Below, piece by piece: positions 3,198 to 14,981 of a stretch of 64,000 nucleotides of DNA. How positions within the stretch are numbered: the stretch's first letter is position 1; each line of letters opens with the position of its first letter. The position numbers were made by a program, and so were the translations under genes. The notes beneath the pieces are model-generated. The model had not been told where the DNA came from. It worked only from the letters and a program-made list of their open reading frames with translations, and made no database searches. Source of the stretch: Actinomyces naeslundii (GTDB lineage Bacteria; Actinomycetota; Actinomycetes; Actinomycetales; Actinomycetaceae); assembly GCF_001956585.1 (NCBI RefSeq), contig NZ_MSRR01000009.1, forward strand, positions 124,001 through 188,000. The letters are read 5' to 3'.

Positions 3198-3899
3198 TCA
3201 GCGGGGGCTGATGAGGCCGGACTCGTAGGCGGCGATGACGAGCTGGGCCCGGTCGCGGGCACCGAGGCGGGCCAGGAGTGCGGTGATGTGGCTGCGGCAG
3301 GTGGCCCGGGTGATACCGAGCTCGGCCTCGATCTCACTGTTGGACAGGCCCTGGGCGATGAGCAGCAGCACCTCGCGCTGGCGGGGTGTGAGGGCCTCGA
3401 CGGCATCGGCCCGGGTGCTGCCGGAAGCTCCGGCCGACGCCGCGCGCGGCATGCGGGCCACGAGGCGAGACAGCACCTGGGGGCTGAGCAGCGACTGCCC
3501 CTCGTGGACGGTGCGCACGGCGTCGACGAGGGACTGCGGGTCGGTGTCCTTGAGCAGGAAGCCGCAGGCGCCGGCGCGCAGGGCGCCCAGGACGTAGTCG
3601 TCGATCTCGAACATGGTCAGGATAAGGACGCGCGTGGCCGCGAGCGCCGGGTCGGCGCAGATCCGGGTGGTGGCCTCGATACCGGTGAGGCCGGGCATCT
3701 GAATGTCCATGAGGACGACGTCGGGGCGCAGCTCGGCAGCCAGGGCGACCGCGCGGGAGCCGTCCTCGGCCAGGCCGACGACGCTCATGCCGGGCTCGGC
3801 CTCGAGCAGAGCGGCCAGGGTGGTGCGCAGGAGGGCCTGGTCCTCAGCGATGAGGACCCGGATAGGGGCACTTCCCGGCCCGGGAACGGCTTCAGTCAT
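3198..3899 (-). CDS. NarL/LuxR-family response regulator
   Basis: The 233-residue protein has a receiver domain (acidic pocket VLIAEDQ at residues 15-21, phospho-acceptor D65 in VVLMDIQMPG, conserved LLKDT lysine) and a C-terminal LuxR helix-turn-helix (LTPRQREVLLLIAQGLSNSEI). It should be a DNA-binding transcription regulator phosphorylated by the sensor kinase encoded immediately upstream, with which it overlaps by 8 bp. I placed the start at 3899 (MTEAVPG) because the longer reading lacks a receiver-type beginning. The ABC transporter transcribed in the opposite direction from the kinase is a likely target. Confidence 0.9.
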   Translation of the reverse strand: MTEAVPGPGSAPIRVLIAEDQALLRTTLAALLEAEPGMSVVGLAEDGSRAVALAAELRPDVVLMDIQMPGLTGIEATTRICADPALAATRVLILTMFEIDDYVLGALRAGACGFLLKDTDPQSLVDAVRTVHEGQSLLSPQVLSRLVARMPRAASAGASGSTRADAVEALTPRQREVLLLIAQGLSNSEIEAELGITRATCRSHITALLARLGARDRAQLVIAAYESGLISPR

Positions 3900-4893
3900 G
3901 GGGCCTCCCGTGGGAGTCGACGGGCAGCGTCGCCTCGATGGCGAAGCCGGGGGCGTCGGCACGGGGGCCGGCGGTCAGGGTCCCACCAAGCGCGGTCAGG
4001 CGCTCATGGAGTCCGCGCAGTCCTTGCCCGGCCCCGAGGTGAGGCTCCCAGCCGGTCGCGGGCCCGTCGTCGACCACGGCGATGCGCAGCAGTCCCGGCT
4101 CCCGGCGGAGGGTCACGCGGGCGCGCGTGGGGCCGGCGTGGCGGGCGGTATTGGCCAGGGCCTCGGCCACGACTCGGGCAGCGGCCTGCACCACCGGGGC
4201 GGGGAGGAGATCGGGTGCCGCCGCGCCCCGGATGGCAGCCGCTTCTGCACGTGTCCCGACATCAGAGTCGAGCTCGACGGTGACACCGGATCGCCCAGCC
4301 CGGTCGATCGATTCGTCGATTGATTCATGGAGACTCTCGGTGAGTTCGTCGGGAGTACCGGTCTTCGCCGCCGGTACGCCCTCCGCTGAGGTCACAGCGG
4401 TTGCAGCGGTCGCCGAGGCCGCAACGACCGCTCCCGGCGTCGGGGGCCTGCTCCCGTCGCGCAGGACGGCGAGCATGCGCCGCAGCGCGTCGGTGGCCTC
4501 GCGGGAGGCGGTCTCGACGTCGTCGAGTGCGGTCCGCAGCCCGTCGGGGGTGGTCTCGAGGCGCTGGGCCACGGCGCAGCGCACGGTGATGGCGCCGAGG
4601 TTGCCGGAGACGACGTCGTGCAGCTCGCGGGCGATGACGAGGCGGTCCTCGGCGACGGCGCGCGCGGCGGTCTCCTGCGCCAGGCGCCGCTCGTAGGCAC
4701 GCTGGTCGCGCCGCAGCAGCCACAGGGAGGCGACGACGAGCCCGGCCATGACGAGCAGCACCGTTATCTGGGCGCGCCGAGAAGGAACCGGGGAGAAGCC
4801 GACCATGGTGCCCAGGCCGACAACAACCACGGTCAGCCCGGTGATGGCGCGCCCGAGCGGCGAGTGGCGCGGTGGGACATCGGGGGCAGGCAC
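3892..4893 (-). CDS. NarL-type sensor histidine kinase (HisKA_3)
   Basis: This is a 333-residue sensor with two N-terminal membrane helices (about residues 14-33 and 43-61) and almost no extracytoplasmic loop, as in intramembrane-sensing kinases. The phospho-acceptor is H92 in ARELHDVVSGNLG. The ATP-binding domain carries EALANTARHA (N box) and VVDDGP with GLRGLHERL (G boxes). A low-complexity Ala/Thr/Glu linker of about 90 residues separates the two parts. It pairs with the overlapping response regulator. Minimal sensing loops next to an ABC transporter are typical of peptide-antibiotic or cell-envelope stress systems; that role is inferred. Confidence 0.88.
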   Translation of the reverse strand: MPAPDVPPRHSPLGRAITGLTVVVVGLGTMVGFSPVPSRRAQITVLLVMAGLVVASLWLLRRDQRAYERRLAQETAARAVAEDRLVIARELHDVVSGNLGAITVRCAVAQRLETTPDGLRTALDDVETASREATDALRRMLAVLRDGSRPPTPGAVVAASATAATAVTSAEGVPAAKTGTPDELTESLHESIDESIDRAGRSGVTVELDSDVGTRAEAAAIRGAAAPDLLPAPVVQAAARVVAEALANTARHAGPTRARVTLRREPGLLRIAVVDDGPATGWEPHLGAGQGLRGLHERLTALGGTLTAGPRADAPGFAIEATLPVDSHGRPHD

Positions 4894-4929
4894 GCGGCCA
4901 GTCTAGGAAGGCGGCTCGGGCGCTTCATC

Positions 4930-4990
4930 GAACCAGGGTCTGACGGACCTGGGTCTGAGGCAGTGGGACCGCCTCGGCTGGGCGGCCGAT
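4930..4990 (+). promoter_or_regulatory. Tandem direct-repeat regulatory site A upstream of ABC operon
   Basis: Two direct units, GAACCAGGGTCTGAC (from 4930) and GGACCTGGGTCTGAG (from 4945), repeat with a 15-bp period. The sequence CGATGCG begins at 4987, 27 bases after the 4960 end of the site, and the ABC ATPase start is 64 bases beyond the site. The same arrangement occurs at 12986-13046 before the CPBP gene. The site lies in the gap between the kinase and transporter genes, so it is a good candidate operator for the adjacent response regulator. Confidence 0.6.
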
Positions 4991-5023
4991 GCGCGCTGCC
5001 GCTCGGCGCGCTGGAGTTGGCCC

Positions 5024-5779
5024 ATGATCAGTATTGAGAACCTCGTCAAGCGGCACGGGGAGCGGGAGGTGCTTCACGGCGTGAGCCTGGAGGCCCGTCC
5101 GGGCCGCGTCACCGGATTCGTGGGCCCGAACGGCGCCGGGAAGTCCTCGACCCTGCGGTGCCTGCTGGGTCTGGACCGGGCCGACGGCGGGCGGACGCTT
5201 ATCGGCGGGCGCCCCTACCGCGAGCTGCGCGAGCCGCTGCGCACGGTGGGGGCGGTGCTCGACGGCTCGGGCGCGCATCCCTCGCGCACGGCCCGCGGTC
5301 ACCTGGGTTGGGTGGCCTCGGGCGCAGGGATCAGTCGGCATCGGGTGGCCGAGGTACTCGACGTCGTCGGGCTGAGTGATGCGGCCGGGCGGCGGGTGCG
5401 CACCTTCTCCCTGGGAATGGGGCAGCGCCTGGGGCTGGCGACGGCGCTGCTGGGCGACCCGGAGGTGCTGGTCCTCGACGAACCGGTCAACGGCCTGGAC
5501 CCGGAAGGGATCCGGTGGATCCGCACGCTGCTTCGGCAGAGGGCCGATGCCGGGGGCACGGTCCTGCTGTCCAGTCATGTTCTGGCAGAGCTGGGCGAGG
5601 TGGCTGACGACGTCGTCGTCATCGCCGGCGGGCGGGTGCGGGCCGCCGGGACGCTGGAGGAGGTCGCGGCGGGCTACGCGAACCTGGAGGAGGCCTTCTT
5701 CTCGCTGACTGCCCCGACCGGGGGCAAGGCCGGCGGTCGGGGCGGCCGGGCCGGACGCGAGGAAGGGGTCCGTTCATGA
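5024..5779 (+). CDS. ABC transporter ATP-binding protein
   Basis: The 251-residue protein has Walker A GPNGAGKS (residues 34-41), the ABC signature in FSLGMGQRLGLA, Walker B VLVLDEPVNGLD and the switch histidine in LLSSHV. The order and spacing match ATPases of ABC-2-like drug or peptide exporters (CcmA/LanF/BcrA type). A ribosome site (GGAG) precedes the ATG. The gene overlaps the first permease gene by four bases (ATGA) and should form an exporter with the two following membrane proteins. Site A at 4930-4960 lies in its promoter region. Substrate unknown; bacteriocin or lantibiotic immunity is a plausible guess. Confidence 0.9.
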   Translation: MISIENLVKRHGEREVLHGVSLEARPGRVTGFVGPNGAGKSSTLRCLLGLDRADGGRTLIGGRPYRELREPLRTVGAVLDGSGAHPSRTARGHLGWVASGAGISRHRVAEVLDVVGLSDAAGRRVRTFSLGMGQRLGLATALLGDPEVLVLDEPVNGLDPEGIRWIRTLLRQRADAGGTVLLSSHVLAELGEVADDVVVIAGGRVRAAGTLEEVAAGYANLEEAFFSLTAPTGGKAGGRGGRAGREEGVRS

Positions 5780-6585
5780 GCGCGGCGACGGCGGTGGTGC
5801 GTTCCCTCAAGGCGGAGGTGCGCAAGACGGTGGGCCTGCCGGGGGCCTGGCTGGGGGCGGCGCTGGCGATCGTCCTGCCGCTCCTGATCGAGTACTACAC
5901 GGATCATGACCTGGCGGCGCGGCTGGCGGCCGGCGACCCGGATGCGCCGGCGCAGCTGGGCAACGTCGGCGTCATCGGGCTGTACGTGGGGACGACGGGG
6001 ATCGTGGTGCTGGCGGTGAGTGTTGTGGTCAGCGAGTACGCAAGTGATCCGCGCACGAGCGGGGCCTCCGGCGCTCCGCGACAGGTGACGACGACGATGC
6101 TGGTACAGCCGCGGCGCGGGGCATCGGTGGCCGCGAAGCTGCTCGTGGTGCTGGGTGCTGCGACGGTGCTCCTGGCGGTGGCGTGGACGGCGACCTACTC
6201 GCTGTGCCGGCACCTGCTGGGGTCGAGTGTGCCCTTCGAGCCGGTGCCGTGGTGGATGCTGATGGGAATCCTGACGTGGTGGGTGTTCTCGGCAATGGCG
6301 TCGATGGCACTGGCGATGGCGACGCGCAGCGCGCTGGTGTCGATGACGGTCCTCGTAGCAATGTCGACGATGATCTCGCCGGGGGTGCTTCTCATCAAGT
6401 CCACCGATGCGGCCCGGTTCCTGCCGGATACCGCGGCGGTGCGGCTCATTGCGAACCCGACGACGCTCAACTACGACCGGCTCGTCGAGCTGCTGTCGAT
6501 CCCGATGGCGGCCGCCGTCTGCACGGCGTGGGCGGGCGGGTGCGCGGCGGTGTGCTGCTGGGTGTGGATGAGGCGGGACGTATGA
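5776..6585 (+). CDS. ABC transporter permease (first)
   Basis: This is a 269-residue integral membrane protein with about six hydrophobic segments, starting with an amphipathic N-terminus (SLKAEVRKTVGLPGAWLGAAL) typical of ABC-2 or LanE/LanG-like permeases. It overlaps the ATPase gene upstream and the second permease downstream by ATGA junctions, so all three are translationally coupled. The second permease shares the layout (ELLKVVTLPAMWWSAAV), which suggests a duplicated pair forming a heterodimeric channel. No substrate-specific motif is visible. Confidence 0.82.
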   Translation: MSAATAVVRSLKAEVRKTVGLPGAWLGAALAIVLPLLIEYYTDHDLAARLAAGDPDAPAQLGNVGVIGLYVGTTGIVVLAVSVVVSEYASDPRTSGASGAPRQVTTTMLVQPRRGASVAAKLLVVLGAATVLLAVAWTATYSLCRHLLGSSVPFEPVPWWMLMGILTWWVFSAMASMALAMATRSALVSMTVLVAMSTMISPGVLLIKSTDAARFLPDTAAVRLIANPTTLNYDRLVELLSIPMAAAVCTAWAGGCAAVCCWVWMRRDV

Positions 6586-7325
6586 GCGGAGCCGGTGCGA
6601 CCAGCAGGGTGAGGGCTACCGCAGGGGTGACGACAGCCTGGGGGCGTGCGCTGCACGCGGAGCTGCTGAAGGTGGTGACGCTGCCGGCGATGTGGTGGTC
6701 GGCAGCGGTGGCGGGCGCGGCTGCGATCGCCACGATGATGTCGGTCCTGCAGAACGTGGTGGATGGGCGGGACTTCGGATTCGAGGAGATCGCGCCAATG
6801 TGGACGTTGGCGGTGCAGATCGGCTTCGTGGCGGCCGGTGTGGCCGCCGCGGGTGCCGAGCACTCCACGGCGCAGGGCATGACGAGTCTGCTGGTGACGC
6901 CGGCGCGGGGGCGGCTGGCGGCGGCGCGACTCATGGTGCTGACCGGTACGGGACTGGTGGCGGCGAGCGTCCTGGTCGGGGCGAGCCTGGCGGCGTGCCC
7001 GACGATGTCGACGGCGGCGCTGTGGGCCGGCGGAAGAACCGTGGTCTGGTTGACGGCGGTGCTGCTGCTGGCGGCCGGGCTCGGTGCGGCGCTGCGCAGC
7101 GTCATCGGCGCGTCGACGGCGGCCGTGGTGCTGGTGATCCTGACACCGCAGCTGGCCGTGTTCCTGGGCGACGCCGCCCGCTGGTTCCCCGGCCAGGCGG
7201 GCCAGATCTGGCTGACGGCAGCCGAATCGCAGGCGGACGTCACCTCCGCCGGACTCATCATCCTGGCCTGGACGACGGCCACTCAGATGGCTGGCATCGT
7301 CCGGCTGGTGCGGGCCGATGGATGA
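6582..7325 (+). CDS. ABC transporter permease (second)
   Basis: The 247-residue protein has about six membrane helices and an N-terminal segment (GRALHAELLKVVTLP) like that of the preceding permease. The start at 6582 overlaps the stop of the first permease (ATGA). With the ATPase it completes a three-gene exporter cassette in the LanFEG style. It is the last gene of the operon: a noncoding stretch of about 200 bases and a change in base composition follow. The assignment is by topology and context, because permeases of this type carry few fixed motifs. Confidence 0.82.
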   Translation: MSGAGATSRVRATAGVTTAWGRALHAELLKVVTLPAMWWSAAVAGAAAIATMMSVLQNVVDGRDFGFEEIAPMWTLAVQIGFVAAGVAAAGAEHSTAQGMTSLLVTPARGRLAAARLMVLTGTGLVAASVLVGASLAACPTMSTAALWAGGRTVVWLTAVLLLAAGLGAALRSVIGASTAAVVLVILTPQLAVFLGDAARWFPGQAGQIWLTAAESQADVTSAGLIILAWTTATQMAGIVRLVRADG

Positions 7326-7452
7326 GGATCAGGACACCACAAGTACGAGCCGGCCGCCGCTCATCAAAGCCAAGGGTGAGAGCGAGTGAGGACGCTTTCA
7401 CCCCTATCCCCTGCCGAGTAAACCCAGATCGCTCAACATCGTTCCAGCACGA

Positions 7453-7530
7453 TATACTCCCGCAGAGACATTCTGCCATCGCAGGCAGACACCCCCGTCT
7501 CTCACCTGCTCTTTTCATGAGGGAAGCACC
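7453..7530 (+). promoter_or_regulatory. Promoter and ribosome site of the HNH gene
   Basis: A clear -10-like hexamer TATACT lies at 7453-7458, followed by a 5' leader and the ribosome site GAGGGA just before the ATG at 7531. No convincing -35 hexamer is visible at 16-18 bp spacing. This marks the HNH gene as an independent transcription unit separate from the ABC operon. Confidence 0.4.
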
Positions 7531-8475
7531 ATGGACAGCGATACGTTCACTCCAGAAGAGGAGCTCGATGCGCACCTAGCTACCATGAAATGGCTGGAAG
7601 AACAACGCATCAACGGACATGAAATACTGACCTTTCAAACCCTTAACGACGGATTCCGCTGGCACGGCCATCGAATTCAGTTAATCAACAGAAATCAAGG
7701 AATATGGCGCCCAAAGCAGTTTCGCGGAGCTTTTTCCTTCAAAACTACATCTACAGAAGAAGATTCCAGGCCATACGATGATACTATCGATGACGACGGA
7801 CTTCTCCACTACCAGTTCGCCGATTCGGACAACAAGACATGGACAAACGATGCGATGATCGAGGCGCATCTGCGCAAGTATCCACTCGTTTGGCTTATTC
7901 GAGTGCCGTCAATGAAGAATCCAACATTGTACTATATGCGATTCCCGGCATACATCAAAGATGTCGACCTCCAGAAGCAGGAATTTATTATAGACATCGA
8001 TGATTCGATCCCCTACGGAAACCTCACGAACCCACCTCCTATTGAAAAGAAATATAAGTCAAGGTGGATGAAAGAGCGCATCCACCAGCACGATTTCAGG
8101 GAGCACGTACTCAGTGCCTACCAGATCTCTTGCGCAGTCTGCGATCTTCCGCACGCACAGCTCCTGGAAGCCTCGCACATCATCGCCGACTCCAGGGAAG
8201 CGGGAGTCCCTGAGGTCAGCAACGGCTTGGCCCTGTGCAGACTCCACCACACCGCCTACGACCGCCATCTCCTCGGCATCGACGCCGACCGCCACATCCA
8301 CGTGGCAACACGAGCAAAGCGCCTCGAGACCGCCCGTCTGCAAACTGGATTGTTAAAATTCGAAGGTCACTCCCTCACGCATGTGCCGGCCTCCAAACAG
8401 ATGCGCCCCGATGGCGACCGTCTTGCCGAACACTTCGAGGACTTCCTCAAAGCAGAGGCTCAAACAGTCAGATAG
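7531..8475 (+). CDS. HNH endonuclease domain protein
   Basis: This is a 314-residue protein with a C-terminal HNH nuclease domain: CAVCD near residue 208, the LLEASHI histidine near 217-223, then NGLALCRLHHTAYDRHLLGID. The N-terminal ~190 residues (DGFRWHGHRIQLINRNQGIWRP, then a beta-rich part) look like the DNA- or modification-recognition half seen in HNH restriction-like enzymes. The product probably cuts DNA in the cytoplasm, as restriction or anti-phage defence. Base use is odd: the first ~560 bp are AT-richer than the host average and the nuclease part is GC-richer, suggesting transfer or domain recombination. No methyltransferase gene is adjacent. Confidence 0.78.
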   Translation: MDSDTFTPEEELDAHLATMKWLEEQRINGHEILTFQTLNDGFRWHGHRIQLINRNQGIWRPKQFRGAFSFKTTSTEEDSRPYDDTIDDDGLLHYQFADSDNKTWTNDAMIEAHLRKYPLVWLIRVPSMKNPTLYYMRFPAYIKDVDLQKQEFIIDIDDSIPYGNLTNPPPIEKKYKSRWMKERIHQHDFREHVLSAYQISCAVCDLPHAQLLEASHIIADSREAGVPEVSNGLALCRLHHTAYDRHLLGIDADRHIHVATRAKRLETARLQTGLLKFEGHSLTHVPASKQMRPDGDRLAEHFEDFLKAEAQTVR

Positions 8476-8543
8476 ACCCAAAGCTTCCGACAAGCTACAC
8501 ACAGCTCCAGAGAATGGGTTCCATCTACTCGAAGGAGCCCGCC

Positions 8544-9128
8544 ATGACCTACCCGCGAGACATCACAACCGAAGTCGAGGCAGCAGTGCTTGAACATGCG
8601 GATCGCCTCGCCGCTATCATCGGCAAGCACTGGCACCCCACGAACGACACCGATCGAGATGATGTCATGCTGCTCGTCGCAGATCTCCTGCGCGCGCACG
8701 CCGAAACAGGGATCGAGATGCAGACCTGGAGGGCAGCACTCGACGTCGTCATGGATCACCTTGCCGCAGAGCCAGAAGGTGCCGATCTACTCCACCGGCT
8801 CGGCAGACCTACCTGGTTCACCGTCATCGGCACCACTAAGAGCAGTCACCGAGAGGCCGTCGCCGTCATCCCCGGCCGGCGCCATCTAGAGACCGCCATC
8901 GGCGCCTGGGCAACTCAGGTCCAGGCGCCGACTGCAGCTGACGCTGTGAGCGCCGCTGTCAGCAAACACTTACAGCACACCTACCTGGCCGCCCCTACCG
9001 GTAACGACGCGCAGCCTCGCGAAGCTGTTCGGCGTACTGATAGATGTCTTCTAGACGATCGATCTGGTGACGAGTCTCGGTTTTATGCTCATCAAGCAGA
9101 CCAAGATACTTCTTGTTTTTCCCATTGA
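8544..9128 (+). CDS. Hypothetical protein, C-terminus probably rearranged
   Basis: The reading frame of 194 residues begins with a good ribosome site (GAAGGAG) and ATG at 8544. Residues 1-150 look like an ordinary soluble alpha-helical protein (TTEVEAAVLEHADRLAAIIGKHW). I do not recognise the family. After about residue 150 the frame runs antisense through the last 134 bp of the convergent HsdR-like gene and becomes charge-rich with no pattern. The natural C-terminus may therefore have been lost when the neighbouring AT-rich segment was inserted. It lies 68 bp after the HNH gene. Confidence 0.5.
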   Translation: MTYPRDITTEVEAAVLEHADRLAAIIGKHWHPTNDTDRDDVMLLVADLLRAHAETGIEMQTWRAALDVVMDHLAAEPEGADLLHRLGRPTWFTVIGTTKSSHREAVAVIPGRRHLETAIGAWATQVQAPTAADAVSAAVSKHLQHTYLAAPTGNDAQPREAVRRTDRCLLDDRSGDESRFYAHQADQDTSCFSH

Positions 9129-10074
9129 AGTGGAAGCGGCATATTGGTCTGCGATTAGAATCATCAACAAGAACGCCGAAATAGCTCTTGGTGTCGCGGT
9201 CAACGACCCGTTCCAGCGGAATTTCTGACACCACGATCGCACGAACAATCATGTATGCCTGCTTTTCTTCCTCGGTAGTAACAATTCCTGATTTCTTATC
9301 CTCGACCTCAACCTCACTCCGAGTGTTTTCTTCTTCACTTTCGGGAGAAGCGGAAACAGTCTCACCAAGTGCATTCTTAAGACGCTCATTAACCTGATCA
9401 GCAAGGAACTGCCTGCACGCCTTCTCGACAACCCCTTGAAAAAACTCCCTCATTTTCGCGGTAAGTGCACCGTCATACACCCGGCGGGCAAACAGCTGCA
9501 CAAAATCCGCATCCGGCTCACTGAAGGTCTTTGCAATCTCCGCCCTAGTAGAGGACACGTACTTGAGTTCCTCAGCCGCCGTTAACACCGAATCGAGATC
9601 AAATGTTGCTTTAGTTAACTTTTTCAATTCGGGAAGAATGTAACTATCTACATTTAGAAGATCCAGGCGAAGAAATGGCTTGGAATCCATGATGTTGGGC
9701 TTGTCCAGATCGGTGTAAAAATGCCAGCACCTCCCATTAGTCAAGACCCCAATCCTAGCATTAGATACGGAGAAGTATCGAACTAGCTGGCTAGCGTGTT
9801 CAAGCGACAGAGGTTCGCCAACCTTTTTAGCTTCAACAAGAATCTGTATGGTTTCCTTACGCTTGATGGCATAGTCAATTTTTTCAGCTTTCCGACTACC
9901 GACGTCGGCAACAAATTCCGGCACAACTTCATCTGGATCAAATACGTCATAGCCTAGAACACTCTGAATGAAAGGCATGATGATCGCATTTTTAGTGGCT
10001 TCTTCGGTCTCAAGCGAACCGGCGTAGTCTCGCACACGGTTTGCTATGTTGAGCAACGCATCTTCGAATGACAT
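8995..10074 (-). CDS. Orphan HsdR_N-like PD-(D/E)XK nuclease protein
   Basis: This 359-residue protein starts with the type I restriction enzyme R-protein N-terminal fold: TEEATKNAIIMPFIQSVLGYDVFDP, then E53, D67 (KIDYAI) and the catalytic E81-A-K83 (ILVEAKKVG). The signature Q and hydrophobic HASQLVRYFSVS follow. No helicase motor, HsdM or HsdS is present. The C-terminal third (RPICRFHFNGKNKKYLGLLDE) resembles a domain found in stand-alone HsdR_N proteins of phages and islands. The gene is clearly AT-richer than its surroundings, which indicates transfer. A role in DNA cleavage or phage defence is inferred. It overlaps the convergent 8544 gene by 134 bp. Confidence 0.75.
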   Translation of the reverse strand: MSFEDALLNIANRVRDYAGSLETEEATKNAIIMPFIQSVLGYDVFDPDEVVPEFVADVGSRKAEKIDYAIKRKETIQILVEAKKVGEPLSLEHASQLVRYFSVSNARIGVLTNGRCWHFYTDLDKPNIMDSKPFLRLDLLNVDSYILPELKKLTKATFDLDSVLTAAEELKYVSSTRAEIAKTFSEPDADFVQLFARRVYDGALTAKMREFFQGVVEKACRQFLADQVNERLKNALGETVSASPESEEENTRSEVEVEDKKSGIVTTEEEKQAYMIVRAIVVSEIPLERVVDRDTKSYFGVLVDDSNRRPICRFHFNGKNKKYLGLLDEHKTETRHQIDRLEDIYQYAEQLREAARRYR

Positions 10075-10533
10075 GAGTCCTCACTGACTGCCTCGGAACA
10101 ACGGCTTTGTCGGTTCGACATCATAGATCAACCACTTCCCGCTCTCTCACAACTTTCAACGCATAACTCGAAATTGTCGCCATACCGTTATTTACGTATA
10201 GAACTCGAGACAAGGGTCTAGTGTCACATTGAGAGCTCGCCATCAAAAGTGGCAGACCTTCTTTCAAACCAACCGAAAGTCCCACTCACTTTCAGTAACA
10301 TACCAACGCAGTATGCACATTTTATTCAAATCTAGCGGACACTCATCCAGTGGTGCTGCAGTCCAACGCGTTCTAACCTACAGAAGTTATCATAAGGGCA
10401 CTCCCAAGCAGACATACTCCAGTTGCGTCTCCACCGTATCTACCAGTGCGCAACCGAAATTTCATCTCCTCCCCTGAGAGACTTAAGGCACTCGGAATTT
10501 CAATACGATCACTCCACGGTCAATCGCTTTTTT
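10075..10533. other. AT-rich intergenic stretch without a supportable gene
   Basis: These 459 bases separate the HsdR-like gene start from the end of the first Excalibur gene. Base composition is far below the window average. The one plus-strand frame (10229-10477) has no ribosome site and no recognisable protein features. The part near 10190-10220 contains AT-rich hexamers (TATAC, TAACGG) that may belong to the promoter of the HsdR-like gene, but I cannot fix a promoter. Confidence 0.4.
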
Positions 10534-11088
10534 CTACTCACAAGCGATGCCGTCGTTATCGCGGTCCAGCTCACGCCGGTAACCGGACTGCCCTCGATAG
10601 AGCGGCGCCACACCGGCATCGCGAGCCGCCTTGCAGTTGCGGTAGTAGACACCGCTCGAGTCGGCTTCCGACCGAGTCGGTTCCTCACCTGTGCCAGACG
10701 AGGTACCACCTCCGGAATTTTCTTCACTCGTCTCCGGCGTCGGCTCCGACACCGGCGCAGCGGGAACCGTCGCCGGTGGAGCGGGAGCCTCAGTCGCTGG
10801 CACCGGTGACGGTGAATAAACAACTGTTGGCACTGGCGACGGGCTGTAGACAACCGTGGGAACAGGGGTTGGTGAGTACACCACAGTGGGCGTCGACGCC
10901 GCCGTCGGCTGGGACGGAGCATCGTCCGACGCGCCAGCAGCGCCAAGCCCAGCCCCAAGAACAAACGTCACAACATAGGGGACAAATCTCCTCAAATTCG
11001 TCCGACGCCTCGGCATCGGACTGTAGTATTGGCTGGGACCAACATAGGAATATGCTGACGAATATGGAGGAGAAGGGGGTACGCTCAT
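10534..11088 (-). CDS. Excalibur domain surface protein 1
   Basis: This 184-residue protein has a Tyr/Pro-rich N-terminus, one membrane or signal helix (about residues 33-52), a linker with three copies of a PTVVYSPxPVP unit (about residues 67-97), and a C-terminal Excalibur domain (YYRNCKAARDAGVAPLYRG ending DRDNDGIACE). The DxDxDGxxCE core is a calcium-binding-type motif found on extracellular bacterial proteins. It is probably displayed outside the cell by the helix, with the Pro-rich spacer reaching through the wall. It is the first of three consecutive Excalibur genes on the same strand. Ligand unknown. Confidence 0.82.
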   Translation of the reverse strand: MSVPPSPPYSSAYSYVGPSQYYSPMPRRRTNLRRFVPYVVTFVLGAGLGAAGASDDAPSQPTAASTPTVVYSPTPVPTVVYSPSPVPTVVYSPSPVPATEAPAPPATVPAAPVSEPTPETSEENSGGGTSSGTGEEPTRSEADSSGVYYRNCKAARDAGVAPLYRGQSGYRRELDRDNDGIACE

Positions 11089-11333
11089 GATGCCTCAGGT
11101 CGCAAGAAAGGATCATTACGGCTAGTCGAGAAGATTAAAGCACCTCGACGAATCCAGCGTCCTGAAATTTCGGAAAATGAAATCATACCGCAACCTACAG
11201 TTGTCTCCAGAAGTACAAAGACGACTTAGCCACTGAAGCTCATTCCCTTTGTACCCCTCTGGCTACTGCGGGTTTAACGCATCCCGATACTCCTGCCCAC
11301 TCGGTCCACTTCCGCTCACTCCGTGCCATCTCA

Positions 11334-11350
11334 GCTCACGTGACGTGAGC
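11334..11350. repeat. Perfect short palindrome
   Basis: GCTCACG at 11334-11340 and CGTGAGC at 11344-11350 form a perfect 7-bp inverted repeat with a 3-base centre. It lies in the 409-base gap between two Excalibur genes and may be an operator or part of a remnant element. Confidence 0.35.
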
Positions 11351-11395
11351 GAACGTCGTGCTCCTTATACAAGATCCCACAGACCGTCCAACCGA

Positions 11396-11439
11396 ATGTG
11401 CTTCGTTCGCAGCACGTAGACGCTACGAACGAAGCACAT
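11396..11439. terminator. Strong 18-bp hairpin between Excalibur genes
   Basis: The arms at 11396-11413 (starts ATGTGCTTCGTTCG) and 11422-11439 pair at 17 of 18 positions around an 8-base loop. There is no T-run on either side, so a classical intrinsic terminator is uncertain. It lies 57 bp downstream of the stop codon of the second Excalibur gene, which fits a transcription end or mRNA-stabilising hairpin. Confidence 0.45.
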
Positions 11440-11497
11440 GGAACTGGTGGACGACTCTGCAGCGTCCCCGTTCTAGACGGCAGGCGTCAACGGAGCC

Positions 11498-12076
11498 TTA
11501 CTTGATCTCGCAGGCGACGCCATCCTTGTCTCGATCCAGGTCCTCGCGATACCCGGGATCACCTCGGTACAAGGGAGCAGCGCCTGCTGCCTTCGCAGCC
11601 TTGCAGTTGGGGTAGTACGTGCTCTCCTGCTTCGGCTCCGGAGCGGGTGCGGGAGCCGCCCCACCACCGCCACCCTGCGTATCCGCCTCCGGCGTCGGCT
11701 CGGGCTCCTGCGTCTCAGGCGGCGTCGAGGGCTCGGGGGTCGGGGCCTGCGTCGTCGGGCTCGGTGACGGCGTGGGCGTCGGCGTAGGCGTCGGGGCGGG
11801 ACTCGGCGTCGGGGTCGGAGCGGGGGACGGAGTCGGAGTAGGAGACGGCGACACCGAAGCAGTCGCCGTCGGCGAGGGTGCCGGTACCGGCGAGTCCACA
11901 TCGTCAGCCGACGACGGGACCCCGCACCCGGCCAGTCCGGCGCAGACCGCGATGGCAAGGGCCGCAGACACTGACCTCACCGTCACCTTCTGGCAACGGG
12001 ACATCGGAGTTGCCGCCCGACCAGCACCGGCGTGGAACGATCGCAAAGAGACGAAGTGGACAGGGAAATTCTTCAT
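11498..12076 (-). CDS. Excalibur domain lipoprotein 2
   Basis: The 192-residue product has a lipoprotein-type signal ending in the lipobox LAGC, a long low-complexity linker rich in Pro, Thr, Ser and Ala (PTPTPSPAPTPTPSPAP), and a C-terminal Excalibur domain (YYPNCKAAKAAGAAPLYRG ... DRDKDGVACEIK). It should be lipid-anchored with the domain exposed beyond the wall. The leader cgaggctctc before the ATG is shared with the third Excalibur gene, which supports this start, although an internal ATG (MSRCQK) would give a more normal signal peptide. Its C-terminal domain is almost identical to its neighbours, so tandem duplication is likely. Confidence 0.82.
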   Translation of the reverse strand: MKNFPVHFVSLRSFHAGAGRAATPMSRCQKVTVRSVSAALAIAVCAGLAGCGVPSSADDVDSPVPAPSPTATASVSPSPTPTPSPAPTPTPSPAPTPTPTPTPSPSPTTQAPTPEPSTPPETQEPEPTPEADTQGGGGGAAPAPAPEPKQESTYYPNCKAAKAAGAAPLYRGDPGYREDLDRDKDGVACEIK

Positions 12077-12220
12077 GAGAGCCTCGAAAAGGAAAAGTGA
12101 AAGACAATGTGTTGCGCTACGTCAAGCCGCATAGCACTCGACGCAGCATGACGGGACACGCGAAGATGAGATCTGGAGCAGCGAGAGCCGGCATTGGCTT
12201 GCCGCAGCAATAGTCAGGCC

Positions 12221-12730
12221 TTACTTATTTTGATCGCAGGCGATGCCGTCCTTATCCCGATCCAGCTCGGGCCGGTAGCCAGGGTCACCCTTGTACATCG
12301 GTGCAGCCCCGGCAGCCTTGGCGTCGTCACAGTTGGCGTAGAACTCCTTCTGAGGCTCAGGCTCGGGGGTCGCCCCCTCCTCGGAGCTCTCCCCGGAACC
12401 CGAGTCACCGCCACCGAACCAGCCGCTCCGGCCAGACGAGTCGTCCGTCGGCTCCGCAGCGGGCTCCTCAGCAGGCGCCTCCTCGGAGTCAGCGGAGCCA
12501 TCGCTGCCGGAGTCCTGCTGCGACTCGGCCGGCGCAGTCGAAGACGGAGCATCACTGCTAGTGCTGGCGGTGTCGTCACAGCCGGCGAGCCCGACGCCAA
12601 GAACCAGGGCGAGGAGCACGGGAGCCGAGGTCCTCAACAGCCCCCGCCGCTTCGACGTCGAGGAAGACACTGATGAAACAGACGAACGGGAAAATATGGG
12701 AGGAATAGGGGACAAAAAGGGCGCGTTCAC
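12221..12730 (-). CDS. Excalibur domain lipoprotein 3
   Basis: This 169-residue protein begins at a GTG after the same cgaggctctc leader as the previous gene. The signal peptide (LLALVLGVGLAGC) ends in an LAGC lipobox. A Ser/Glu/Asp/Gly-rich acidic linker of ~80 residues leads to a C-terminal Excalibur domain (FYANCDDAKAAGAAPMYKG ... DRDKDGIACDQNK). The acidic linker differs from the Pro/Thr linkers of the other two copies, so the spacers evolve faster than the domain. Surface lipoprotein; ligand and role unknown. Confidence 0.82.
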   Translation of the reverse strand: MNAPFLSPIPPIFSRSSVSSVSSSTSKRRGLLRTSAPVLLALVLGVGLAGCDDTASTSSDAPSSTAPAESQQDSGSDGSADSEEAPAEEPAAEPTDDSSGRSGWFGGGDSGSGESSEEGATPEPEPQKEFYANCDDAKAAGAAPMYKGDPGYRPELDRDKDGIACDQNK

Positions 12731-12985
12731 GAGAGCCTCGAGTCAGGAGAAGGGATGGTGGGCGGCTAGCCGATAGAATTGAAGCACTCCAGGGGCAGTA
12801 ATAACTCACGCAGCCATAAAATGCAATCGCATTGATACACACATTTTTCACTGTCACTGGGAGTAGAAATTGAAATGCGACTGCTTGACAATTGTCCCTT
12901 ATTTTTACGCTTAGTGCGCAGTCTTCCAACCCCACGACAGCCGACCACACATGCGCTCAGGCAGCTCAGCAAGGCTTAGGGAGTC
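12731..12985. other. AT-rich intergenic region
   Basis: This region, AT-rich compared with its surroundings, lies between the divergent Excalibur 3 gene and the CPBP gene. I see no coding frame with a ribosome site. It contains the promoter region for the Excalibur gene, and the regulatory site B starts at its right edge. Confidence 0.4.
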
Positions 12986-13046
12986 GAACCGGAGTCTGAC
13001 GAACCAGGGTCTGAGGGGCACACCGAGACTCAGCCGCCGGGGCGAT
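12986..13046 (+). promoter_or_regulatory. Tandem direct-repeat regulatory site B upstream of CPBP gene
   Basis: Units GAACCGGAGTCTGAC (from 12986) and GAACCAGGGTCTGAG (from 13001) repeat with a 15-bp period, almost identical to site A at 4930. CGATGTG begins at 13043, 27 bases after the 13016 end of the site, the same spacing as in site A. The ATG of the CPBP gene is 66 bases beyond the site, against 64 for site A. The conserved geometry suggests a shared activator-dependent promoter. Confidence 0.6.
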
Positions 13047-13081
13047 GTGACTCATGGGCCGGCCGCCGCACACTTCCGGCC

Positions 13082-13867
13082 ATGAGCACTTCCCGCACGT
13101 CCCTGCCCCAGCAGACGCCGACCATCTCCGGAGCACCGGATCCTGCGCCGTCGGACTCCGCTCCGGTCTCGACTCCGACCGCGAGCACCCACCCCGACCG
13201 ACTGAGCACCGTCACACTGGTCATCTTCACAAGCGTCTACGCCTTCTTCTTCCCCCTCCACCTCGGCCACTTTCTCATCCCCGGGGACGCCGGCCCCGCA
13301 ACCGGCCTCGCGCTCTACATCGCTCTCTTCGCCGTCGGCTGCGTCGCCTTCCGCCACCCGCTGGCCCGGGCCGCCCGTCAGGTAGCGGCCCGTAAGCGGC
13401 GGGCCGTCCTCACTCTCATCGTGGGCGGACTCGCCACCTTGGTCATCGAGCTCGTCGGCGGCCTGGCGTCCTCGGCCCTGCTCAACCTCGCCGGCCTGTC
13501 CGGAGCAACCCTGCAGAATGACACCAGCGTTGGCGAAGCCACGCGGATGTTCCCGCCGATCATCATCGTCGTCGTGCTCGGGATCGTGGGGCCGATTGTG
13601 GAGGAGATGTTCTTCCGCCAGCTCCTCATTGGGCTCATCGAGCGTTTCGCGCCGACCTGGGTGGCTGTTGTCGTCTCCAGCGTCCTGTTCGGTGCGCTGC
13701 ACATGCACTCGTTCGCGCTCTCCGAGGTACTGAGCGTCATCCCGCACGCCTTCTTCGGGCTCAGCTGCGGGCTGCTCTATGTCAAGGCCGACCGCAACCT
13801 GCTCTACCCGGCGAGCATCCACTGCCTCAACAACCTCAGCGCCTTCCTGACCCTCCTCCTGCACTGA
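13082..13867 (+). CDS. CPBP family intramembrane metalloprotease
   Basis: The 261-residue membrane protein carries the CPBP (CAAX protease and bacteriocin-processing, Abi) motifs: IVEEMFFR near residue 176 (paired glutamates), FGALHMHS near 203 (metal histidine) and SIHCLNN near 249. About eight hydrophobic helices are present. Family members are glutamic-type intramembrane proteases, often giving self-immunity to bacteriocins or processing peptides. The preceding site B ties it to the two-component/ABC operon at 3-7 kb. It is monocistronic here; an ArsR-type gene with its own promoter follows. Confidence 0.88.
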   Translation: MSTSRTSLPQQTPTISGAPDPAPSDSAPVSTPTASTHPDRLSTVTLVIFTSVYAFFFPLHLGHFLIPGDAGPATGLALYIALFAVGCVAFRHPLARAARQVAARKRRAVLTLIVGGLATLVIELVGGLASSALLNLAGLSGATLQNDTSVGEATRMFPPIIIVVVLGIVGPIVEEMFFRQLLIGLIERFAPTWVAVVVSSVLFGALHMHSFALSEVLSVIPHAFFGLSCGLLYVKADRNLLYPASIHCLNNLSAFLTLLLH

Positions 13868-13938: not shown

Positions 13939-13968
13939 TACTATTTCGGTATGTCGCGAAATACCGAA
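13939..13968 (+). promoter_or_regulatory. ArsR-gene promoter and overlapping operator
   Basis: A -10-like hexamer TACTAT at 13939-13944 ends six bases before the ATG at 13951, so the mRNA is probably leaderless. An inverted repeat, TTCGGTAT at 13945-13952 and ATACCGAA at 13961-13968, covers the transcription start and the start codon. A repressor bound here would block initiation, as expected for autoregulation by the encoded ArsR protein. Confidence 0.6.
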
Positions 13969-14277
13969 TCAGGAGTCTTCGCCGCCCTGGGGCACCCCAC
14001 ACGGCGCGCGATCCTGGCTTTCCTGCGCGATCACGACTACGTCAGGGTCGGCGAGATCGCCAACGCCGTCGGCGTCTCAGGATCAACCCTGTCGGGCCAC
14101 CTGCGCACGCTGCGCGAGGCCGAGCTGGTCGACACCCGTCGCCGCGGCACCGAGATCCAGTACCGCGTCAACCTCACCCTCATTGACGAGGCCATGCTGC
14201 TGCTCGCCTCCCTGGGCGGCACGCTCAAAGCCCCCGATCCCACCGTCCGCCTCGCTCAGGAAAGGAGAGAACCATGA
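13951..14277 (+). CDS. ArsR-family autorepressor (SdpR-like)
   Basis: The 108-residue winged-helix protein opens with FAALGHPTRRAILAFLRD and has the recognition helix VSGSTLSGHLRTLREAELV followed by the RRGTEIQYRVN wing. These are ArsR/SdpR hallmarks. It lacks the CxC metal-binding pair of arsenic or metal sensors, so it is not a metal sensor by sequence. An inverted repeat covers its own start codon. It overlaps the next gene by four bases (ATGA). The pairing with an SdpI-like membrane protein matches the Bacillus SdpR-SdpI signalling-immunity pair. Confidence 0.85.
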   Translation: MSRNTESGVFAALGHPTRRAILAFLRDHDYVRVGEIANAVGVSGSTLSGHLRTLREAELVDTRRRGTEIQYRVNLTLIDEAMLLLASLGGTLKAPDPTVRLAQERREP

Positions 14278-14981
14278 CAACCGAGAACCGCCCAACTCGT
14301 TTTCCCGCCGGAGTTGTTATCGCTGCGGCGATCGCCCTGGCCTTCATGATCGCCTGGAGCGCCGTGCACTGGCCGGAGATGGCGCCCACCATCGTCACAC
14401 GGGAGGCCGGCGGCAGCCACGGCGCGAGCATCATCCCCCGAGGCTTTAGCGCGTCGGCAATGCCGGTGACCCTCGTGCTGGTCTCCTCGCTGATGGCGAT
14501 CAGCCCCTGGGTGAACGCGAAGTTCTCCTCCCTCACCGGCATGCCAATGCCCCGCTACGACCGCAGTGCCGCACGGGTCCGCACCGCGACGCAGGCCGGG
14601 CTTTGCCTAGTGATGTGCGCCGTGCACGTCTTCGTCGTCGGCCTCCACACGGGCTCCGAGACCTCCGCGCTCACGCTGGTGGCGATGAGCCTGGGCGCCC
14701 TGCTGGTCCTTCTGGGCATCTACCTCCCCATCGCGCAGTCCGACGTCGAGACGAATGACTCCTGGCTCAATGCCCTCATCGTCGCTCAACGCTCGATGAG
14801 CCGCAGCGCGGGCATCTCGATGGTCGTCGTCGGCCTGGCCACGATTGCGGGCACCACCGCCAGCCCGTGGCTGGGTCTGGCGATCGGAGGCAGCGGAGCG
14901 GTAGCCATCACCGTGACCCTTCTGGTCGCCTCCCTGGTCAGGGCCATGCGTTTGAGCAGGCCACGGCACCGCCACCCGTAA
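14274..14981 (+). CDS. SdpI-like membrane protein
   Basis: This is a 235-residue protein with five or six hydrophobic helices. An outward segment after the first helix (AVHWPEMAPTIVTREAGGSHG) recalls the DUF1648 part of SdpI-type proteins. It is coupled to the ArsR gene by an ATGA overlap. In Bacillus, SdpI gives immunity to a killing peptide and can sequester its SdpR repressor at the membrane. A similar sensor-plus-immunity role is inferred here from gene order and topology; sequence alone does not prove it. Confidence 0.6.
   Translation: MTTENRPTRFPAGVVIAAAIALAFMIAWSAVHWPEMAPTIVTREAGGSHGASIIPRGFSASAMPVTLVLVSSLMAISPWVNAKFSSLTGMPMPRYDRSAARVRTATQAGLCLVMCAVHVFVVGLHTGSETSALTLVAMSLGALLVLLGIYLPIAQSDVETNDSWLNALIVAQRSMSRSAGISMVVVGLATIAGTTASPWLGLAIGGSGAVAITVTLLVASLVRAMRLSRPRHRHP

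Follow-up and report, generated by a model that had tools for sequence, protein, structure and literature searches.

A tandem palindromic operator shared by an ABC exporter operon and a CPBP protease gene in a putative NarL-class stress regulon of Actinomyces

We analysed a window of 64,000 nucleotides of Actinomyces naeslundii (contig NZ_MSRR01000009.1, positions 124,001 to 188,000), part of a 3.12-Mb genome, in which one short element, here called the operator, stands before both an ATP-binding cassette (ABC) exporter operon and the gene of a CPBP intramembrane protease. The operator consists of two inverted repeats in tandem and lies beside genes for a histidine kinase and a NarL/LuxR-class response regulator, and in the genus its distribution follows that of the regulator. 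We propose that kinase, regulator, exporter and protease form one small regulon, which may serve to protect the cell against bacteriocin-like peptides.

Organization of the locus

The genes of the response regulator (3198..3962, minus strand, with its likely start at the ATG at 3899) and of the histidine kinase (3892..4893, minus strand; HisKA_3 and HATPase_c domains, two predicted membrane helices joined by a very short loop) are divergent from the ABC operon, which encodes an ATPase (5024..5779), a first permease (5776..6585) and a second permease-like membrane protein (6582..7325), all on the plus strand. Between these divergent operons lies the first operator (4928..4958, plus strand), made of two 7-2-7 inverted repeats: unit 1 at 4928-4943 (TCGAACC-AG-GGTCTGA) and unit 2 at 4943-4958 (ACGGACC-TG-GGTCTGA), overlapping by 1 bp. 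On its kinase side a candidate -10 element of the kinase-regulator promoter, TAGACT (4900..4905, minus strand), lies 22 bp from the operator edge, and on its ABC side a conserved CGATGCG (4987..4993, plus strand) is the candidate -10 region of the ABC promoter. The second operator (12984..13014, plus strand; units 12984-12999, TCGAACC-GG-AGTCTGA, and 12999-13014, ACGAACC-AG-GGTCTGA) is followed by CGATGTG (13043..13049, plus strand), likewise conserved and a candidate -10 region, and by the gene of the CPBP (Rce1-like) intramembrane protease (13082..13867, plus strand), about 8 kb further on.

Tandem palindromes upstream of two transcription units

The two operators, each of 31 bases, agree at 27 of these positions and sit in mostly dissimilar flanks, the exception being a stretch of partial similarity that leads up to CGATG. 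From the operator end to GATG there are 29 bases at both genes (28 to CGATGYG), and from the site to the ATG 65 bases at the ABC operon and 67 at CPBP. A first-pass annotation had noticed the repeats, their 15-bp period, their equal distance to CGATGYG and near-equal distances to the start codons, and these observations stand; its coordinates (4930-4960 and 12986-13016) were off by about 2, its distances of 27 bases to CGATGYG and of 64 and 66 bases to the start codons give way to the values above, and its description of the upstream regions as unlike holds outside the stretch just mentioned. Its simple 13-mer direct-repeat unit has to be replaced, as follows.

Each unit makes most sense as an inverted repeat of 16 bp, TCRGACC-NN-GGTCYGA, in which two heptamers enclose a 2-bp gap, and the 15-bp period arises because adjoining 16-bp units overlap by 1 bp. 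We scanned 120 possible centres of symmetry in 31 sites from the genus, namely the 30 places found with the refined tandem pattern described below and one weak site of genome G024. Centres 8.5 and 23.5 ranked first and second, with paired fractions of 0.66 and 0.54 against a mean of 0.29; with the runners-up, centres 54.5 and 16.0, close behind at 0.52 and 0.50, the symmetry of the second unit is weak by the centre scan alone. Unit 2 is also the weaker palindrome since it pairs at 127 of 210 positions, as against 161 of 210 for unit 1, and its outermost pair matches in 1 of 30 sites.

Species with other spacings speak for the palindrome as the unit, because they keep the first palindrome. The two units are offset by 13 bp in G018 and G029 and by 14 bp in G009 and G017, with a poor second unit, and before CPBP in G032 a perfect TCGGACC-GG-GGTCCGA and a single-mismatch unit stand 24 bp apart. 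In these species the first unit is 0-2 mismatches from the palindromic consensus and the second 3-4, except in G032 (1). We therefore dropped the plain direct-repeat reading in favour of tandem 7-2-7 palindromes: the spacing varies while the first unit stays near consensus.

How rare is such a site? The single unit alone is not significant in the window, where it has nine matches at two or fewer mismatches against a mean of 5.69 in shuffled sequences, 9 of 100 shuffles holding equally many. The tandem form, at three or fewer mismatches, occurs at two places genome-wide, both of them the sites described here, and its reversed control has one match. Single units at one or fewer mismatches gave 19 rows in the same genome, several of them the same place on both strands, and 5 in the control. 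Of ten such loci, six fall inside a long likely open reading frame (ORF) and one inside a doubtful one; the others are a tRNA-like arm, a contig end (L194) and an intergenic site (L186). The last (L186 1501-1516, C4:51561-51576) is a one-mismatch unit 17 bp before a minus-strand gene whose product we take, from the protein alone, to be a membrane protease like HtpX; it is possibly a further target, possibly chance.

Conservation in the genus Actinomyces

The first-pass annotation assigned both sites to one regulon of the two-component system at 3198-4893, and comparison across the genus supports this well. Orthologues of the regulator, defined by at least 70% identity, are present in 28 of 49 genus genomes, and the refined tandem pattern, scored at three or fewer mismatches, turned up in 23 of those 28 genomes and in 0 of the 21 that lack the orthologue (Fisher p = 2.9e-9, counted over related genomes); the reversed pattern was found in 0 of 49. 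All 30 refined-pattern places precede either an ABC operon, with the ATPase or a permease gene first and, in G039, a truncated ABC gene, or else a CPBP gene. The five regulator-positive genomes that lack a tandem match (G010, G018, G024, G029, G047) have single, weak or differently spaced units. For 34 of 36 chosen targets at 30 loci a unit with two or fewer mismatches stands in the preceding 450 bp, and these loci hold 50 matches in 16.2 kb of upstream sequence against 8 in 350 kb elsewhere. CPBP relatives (E <= 1e-15) follow the same division, occurring in 19 of the 28 regulator-positive genomes and 0 of the 21 others (p = 4.9e-7). Beyond the genus the tandem pattern falls to chance level, as it matches 4 of 164 family genomes, among them G127 with a repeat array, and the reversed control matches 3 of 164. 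The site is thus not frequent in unrelated promoters in the genome, genus or family searches.

The regulator itself belongs to the NarL/LuxR class, with a receiver domain (PF00072, 4e-26) and a GerE/LuxR helix-turn-helix (PF00196, 3.1e-14), closest solved structures in VraR (1.1e-37) and NarL (2.4e-34), and 7-2-7 sites before its presumed targets. Its recognition-helix region, ITRATCRSH in the window, is kept as ITRAT[CR]R[ST]H in all 28 regulators. Two diverged regulators (G015 and G048, about 60% identity) that have VSHSTLKTH in this helix stand beside a similar ABC operon without the operator. Paralogous ABC operons at L051, L052 and L053 keep CCGATG at a similar distance behind a different upstream repeat, of the CCCGTGGGCCC type, which is perhaps the operator of another regulator. 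In G018 a different ABC operon (63% ATPase) follows a perfect large palindrome, ACCCGGGTCTACTAGACCCGGGT (L009 450-476), similar to the operator and distinct from it.

Candidates for a third regulon member came from an early tandem search, in which 9 of 33 rows did not lie before ABC or CPBP, and all were rejected. Five of them (L007, L011, L022, L025 and L027, at about 1500-1530) span the stop codon of an ORF that is presumably citrate-synthase-like, and a sixth row of this type, in G040, was judged by its identical sequence; L013 lies inside what reads as an ADP-ribosylglycohydrolase-like ORF and has its sequence repeated in a G040 row; L006 falls where GC-rich frames overlap. Both enzyme names are our reading of the proteins. 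The citrate-synthase-like near-match, seen in several Actinomyces species, is a 15-bp duplication with GGGTCTGA.

Variable neighbours of the kinase-regulator pair

Among the 28 regulator-positive genomes, 18 have the pair transcribed divergently from the ABC operon and six from CPBP (G003, G004, G010, G018, G024, G029), so that in different species it faces either target, again as expected of one regulon. In G047 CPBP is its convergent neighbour, and in G012 one cluster contains two sites, serving PermA-CPBP and ABC-PermB; the arrangement in G001 and G035 cannot be judged. Where the pair stands by the ABC operon, CPBP may lie elsewhere, about 5-13 kb off in G000, G017, G019, G020, G040 and G045; in G009, G014 and G032 it is at a great distance or on a different contig. 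If ABC is scored as present only where an orthologue with at least 70% identity adjoins the pair, 10 genomes have both targets, 7 have just CPBP and 8 just ABC, with three genomes outside the count: G039 for its truncated ABC gene, G035 for a contig end, and G001 for a deletion. This deletion (L124 17265-19374, no assembly gap) took away the whole kinase and the operator, together with the front parts of the ABC gene and of the regulator. On the regulator tree the state 'CPBP-adjacent' needs four changes, at least two of which are forced by well-supported branches.

Why should one sensor be joined now to an exporter, now to a protease? As a tentative idea to which we give only a small share of belief, the kinase-regulator pair could be a portable alarm, and exporter and protease interchangeable answers to one peptide, with the protease cutting in the membrane what the exporter pumps out, or else trimming the sensor and so setting the threshold of the alarm. 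The latter variant is drawn by likeness to SpdC, reported to control a kinase (PMC5854430).

Promoter architecture

At every one of the 25 loci whose kinase is divergent, a TAnnnT -10 element lies 22-23 bp from the operator edge on the kinase side. In the window the GTG start of the kinase comes 6 bases after TAGACT, and its mRNA is probably leaderless. The near unit has its centre some 42 bases ahead of the predicted start, and about -42 is the classical position of an activator; together with the fixed distance of the kinase -10, this suggests that the kinase-regulator operon is positively autoregulated.

Towards the target genes, 25 of 31 sites have GATG at a fixed 29-30 bases, with a conserved T 14 bases before GATG and no conserved -35. 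Taken as a weak -10, CGATG would place the units at about -50 and -65. We rejected the reading of CGATG as the start codon of a short ORF before the gene, since G002, G033 and G009 have lost the ATG and its frame relative to the gene varies.

Encoded proteins and neighbouring genes

The best NCBIfam hit of the ATPase is the lantibiotic-protection family TIGR03740, at 177.4 bits against a cut-off of 309.75; it may work like members of that family and is not filed as one. The first permease (5776-6585) has no Pfam or NCBIfam match above cut-off and models as an ABC-2 exporter fold, a generic one, and the second permease-like protein (6582-7325) has no family match in the same searches.

The protease is placed in the CPBP/Rce1-like family by a PF02517 score of 65.6 bits against a cut-off of 22.4 and by its motifs: E174 E175 R179, F203 H207 and H247 N251 are invariant in 19 of 19 aligned sequences and match EExxxR, FxxxH and HxxxN, which we take to be the CPBP/Rce1 motifs. 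A fold comparison with Rce1 gives a Z that is middling for a helical protein, and no PDB sequence match was found at E <= 1. CPBP proteases occur in bacteriocin loci, where few of them have an assigned function.

Directly behind CPBP come an ArsR/SdpR-like gene (13951-14277; SdpR subfamily 71.5 bits, cut-off 100) and a membrane-protein gene (14274-14981). Their order recalls that of SdpR-SdpI immunity pairs; the membrane protein has no family match, and its reading as SdpI, drawn from gene order only, was set aside. In Actinomyces oris WVU627 (415-kb record) the CPBP relative is 91.9% identical, and the same order of kinase-regulator, ABC and CPBP recurs with both operators, the genes being named only generically in the annotation.

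The stretch between the operators, whose length differs among species, holds in the window an HNH-endonuclease gene and a 359-aa protein with a type I restriction HSDR_N domain (7531-10074), and on the minus strand three successive Excalibur-domain proteins with low-complexity linkers (10534-12730).

A model and its alternatives

We put at roughly 0.8 the probability that these elements form a small Actinomyces stress regulon in which a NarL-class pair, through a tandem operator, governs an exporter and a CPBP protease. An intramembrane-sensing histidine kinase (3892-4893) would phosphorylate the NarL-class response regulator (3198-3962), two dimers of which would occupy the tandem 7-2-7 inverted repeats and bring in RNA polymerase. 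Binding at 4928-4958 would turn on the ATPase-permease-permease exporter (5024-7325) and, in the opposite direction, the regulator's own operon; binding at 12984-13014 would turn on the CPBP intramembrane protease (13082-13867). That the operator is worked by the adjoining kinase-regulator pair is very probable from the comparative evidence. Exporter and protease would most likely shield the membrane against an amphipathic compound of foreign origin, with a bacteriocin-like peptide as the probable case, a role suggested by family resemblance.

Several observations weigh against this proposal. The Fisher counts are not independent events because the genomes are related. The ABC operators of G009 and G017 have one good unit and one poor (4 mismatches), G010 and G024 have only weak units with at least three mismatches, and a second CPBP relative of G032 (L080) is without an operator. 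In G001 the distant CPBP operator is intact despite a damaged kinase and regulator, and the citrate-synthase-like near-matches have no convincing downstream gene on that strand. CGATG, as the -10 of both target promoters, fits TAnnnT poorly, and the matches of the ATPase and the ArsR protein to peptide-immunity families lie below the curated cut-offs.

The alternative that survives best accepts the regulon as described and changes its job to a response to polyenes, lipids or general envelope stress, which we consider possible and clearly the less likely function. A two-component pair with an ATPase and permeases is also the layout in Bacillus, where LnrJK answers linearmycin and amphotericin and LnrK controls lnrLMN (PMC7472640), and the permease fold is that of a generic ABC-2 exporter; the ATPase, however, scores best against a lantibiotic-protection subfamily, and a bacteriocin region of streptococci includes the gene of SilX, a CAAX protease (PMC9298176).

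It is unlikely that the regulator instead represses both targets through the operator. The operator does stand beside promoter elements, but it lies upstream of the candidate -10 (29 bases to GATG) where no -35 is conserved, an arrangement for which an activator fits, and the position of the near unit on the kinase side, about 42 bases before the predicted start, points the same way.

Slightly more improbable still is that the operator, real and shared, is mainly bound by another protein, either the ArsR/SdpR-like one (13951-14277) or a paralogous NarL-class regulator. The place of the ArsR gene directly behind CPBP, its SdpR score, and the operator that outlived the G001 deletion would agree with this. 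Yet an ArsR gene accompanies CPBP in four genomes only (G000, G017, G019, G035; some stretches end close by), and regulator relatives at about 45-55% identity occur in operator-free genomes too, the operator tracking the orthologue of 70% or more. That the repeats are chance, or a recently copied promoter fragment of no regulatory meaning, hardly deserves credence: one unit alone is not rare and tandem near-matches also occur at the citrate-synthase-like 3' end, but the site is kept where regulators are only 70% identical and the spacer behind it has changed, its flanks are unlike at both genes, and the genus pattern counts, the symmetry scan and the enrichment of units upstream of targets already contradict it.

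Relation to known systems

In its layout the proposed Actinomyces regulon comes closest to LnrJK-LnrLMN (YfiJK-LMN), the linearmycin/polyene response, which combines a NarL-class pair with an ATPase and two permeases. There, too, a two-component pair controls an ABC transporter, and in Bacillus subtilis lnrLMN is the only reported target of LnrK (PMC7472640). The Actinomyces system differs in having a second target, CPBP, on the same operator, in the divergence of its operons, and in the replacement of the transporter by CPBP in some species. Several regulators of Cpr/LanFEG modules are OmpR-class, whereas the Actinomyces regulator is NarL-class and its ATPase falls below the family cut-off. 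These Cpr-type modules, which resemble LanFEG and are two-component controlled (CprABC-K-R, LcrSR-LctFEG, NsrFE1E2G-XRK; PMC5786555), share with the window a pair beside an ATPase and permeases, the Actinomyces ATPase having TIGR03740 as its best hit.

The closest logic is found in Streptococcus mutans, where NsrRS governs NsrX and MutFEG, unrelated protection factors in combinations that vary by strain (PMC9241761), so that one pair likewise stands over an exporter and an unrelated factor. There the second factor is NsrX, the phylum is different, and the text has no mention of CAAX or CPBP. SpdC and Rce1 belong to the CPBP family, and the Actinomyces CPBP gene differs from them in standing under a putative NarL-class operator. 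The actifensin cluster has a LuxR-family regulator and ABC genes, with CAAX and histidine kinase not mentioned in the text (PMC6989792), and a link to actifensin is only an idea.

In searches of a literature library with few subscription journals, we found no paper that describes a CPBP gene and an exporter under one NarL-class operator, and none on a defined site for a NarL-class regulator of oral Actinomyces. The Actinomyces operators would offer a defined candidate binding site for such a regulator, and the genus a natural series of target-gene exchange by a single two-component pair. Because one precise, conserved operator ties CPBP to a sensor and an exporter, the inducer and substrate of the protease become searchable through the sensor. 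As to the site itself, the 7-2-7 layout of the Actinomyces unit is that of NarL sites, and NarL activates the E. coli ogt promoter from two sites upstream of it, centred at -44.5 and -77.5, and acts there from -67.5 as well (PMC7419079), a likeness to the arrangement proposed here that differs in one respect, the Actinomyces sites overlapping by 1 bp with their centres 15 bp apart.

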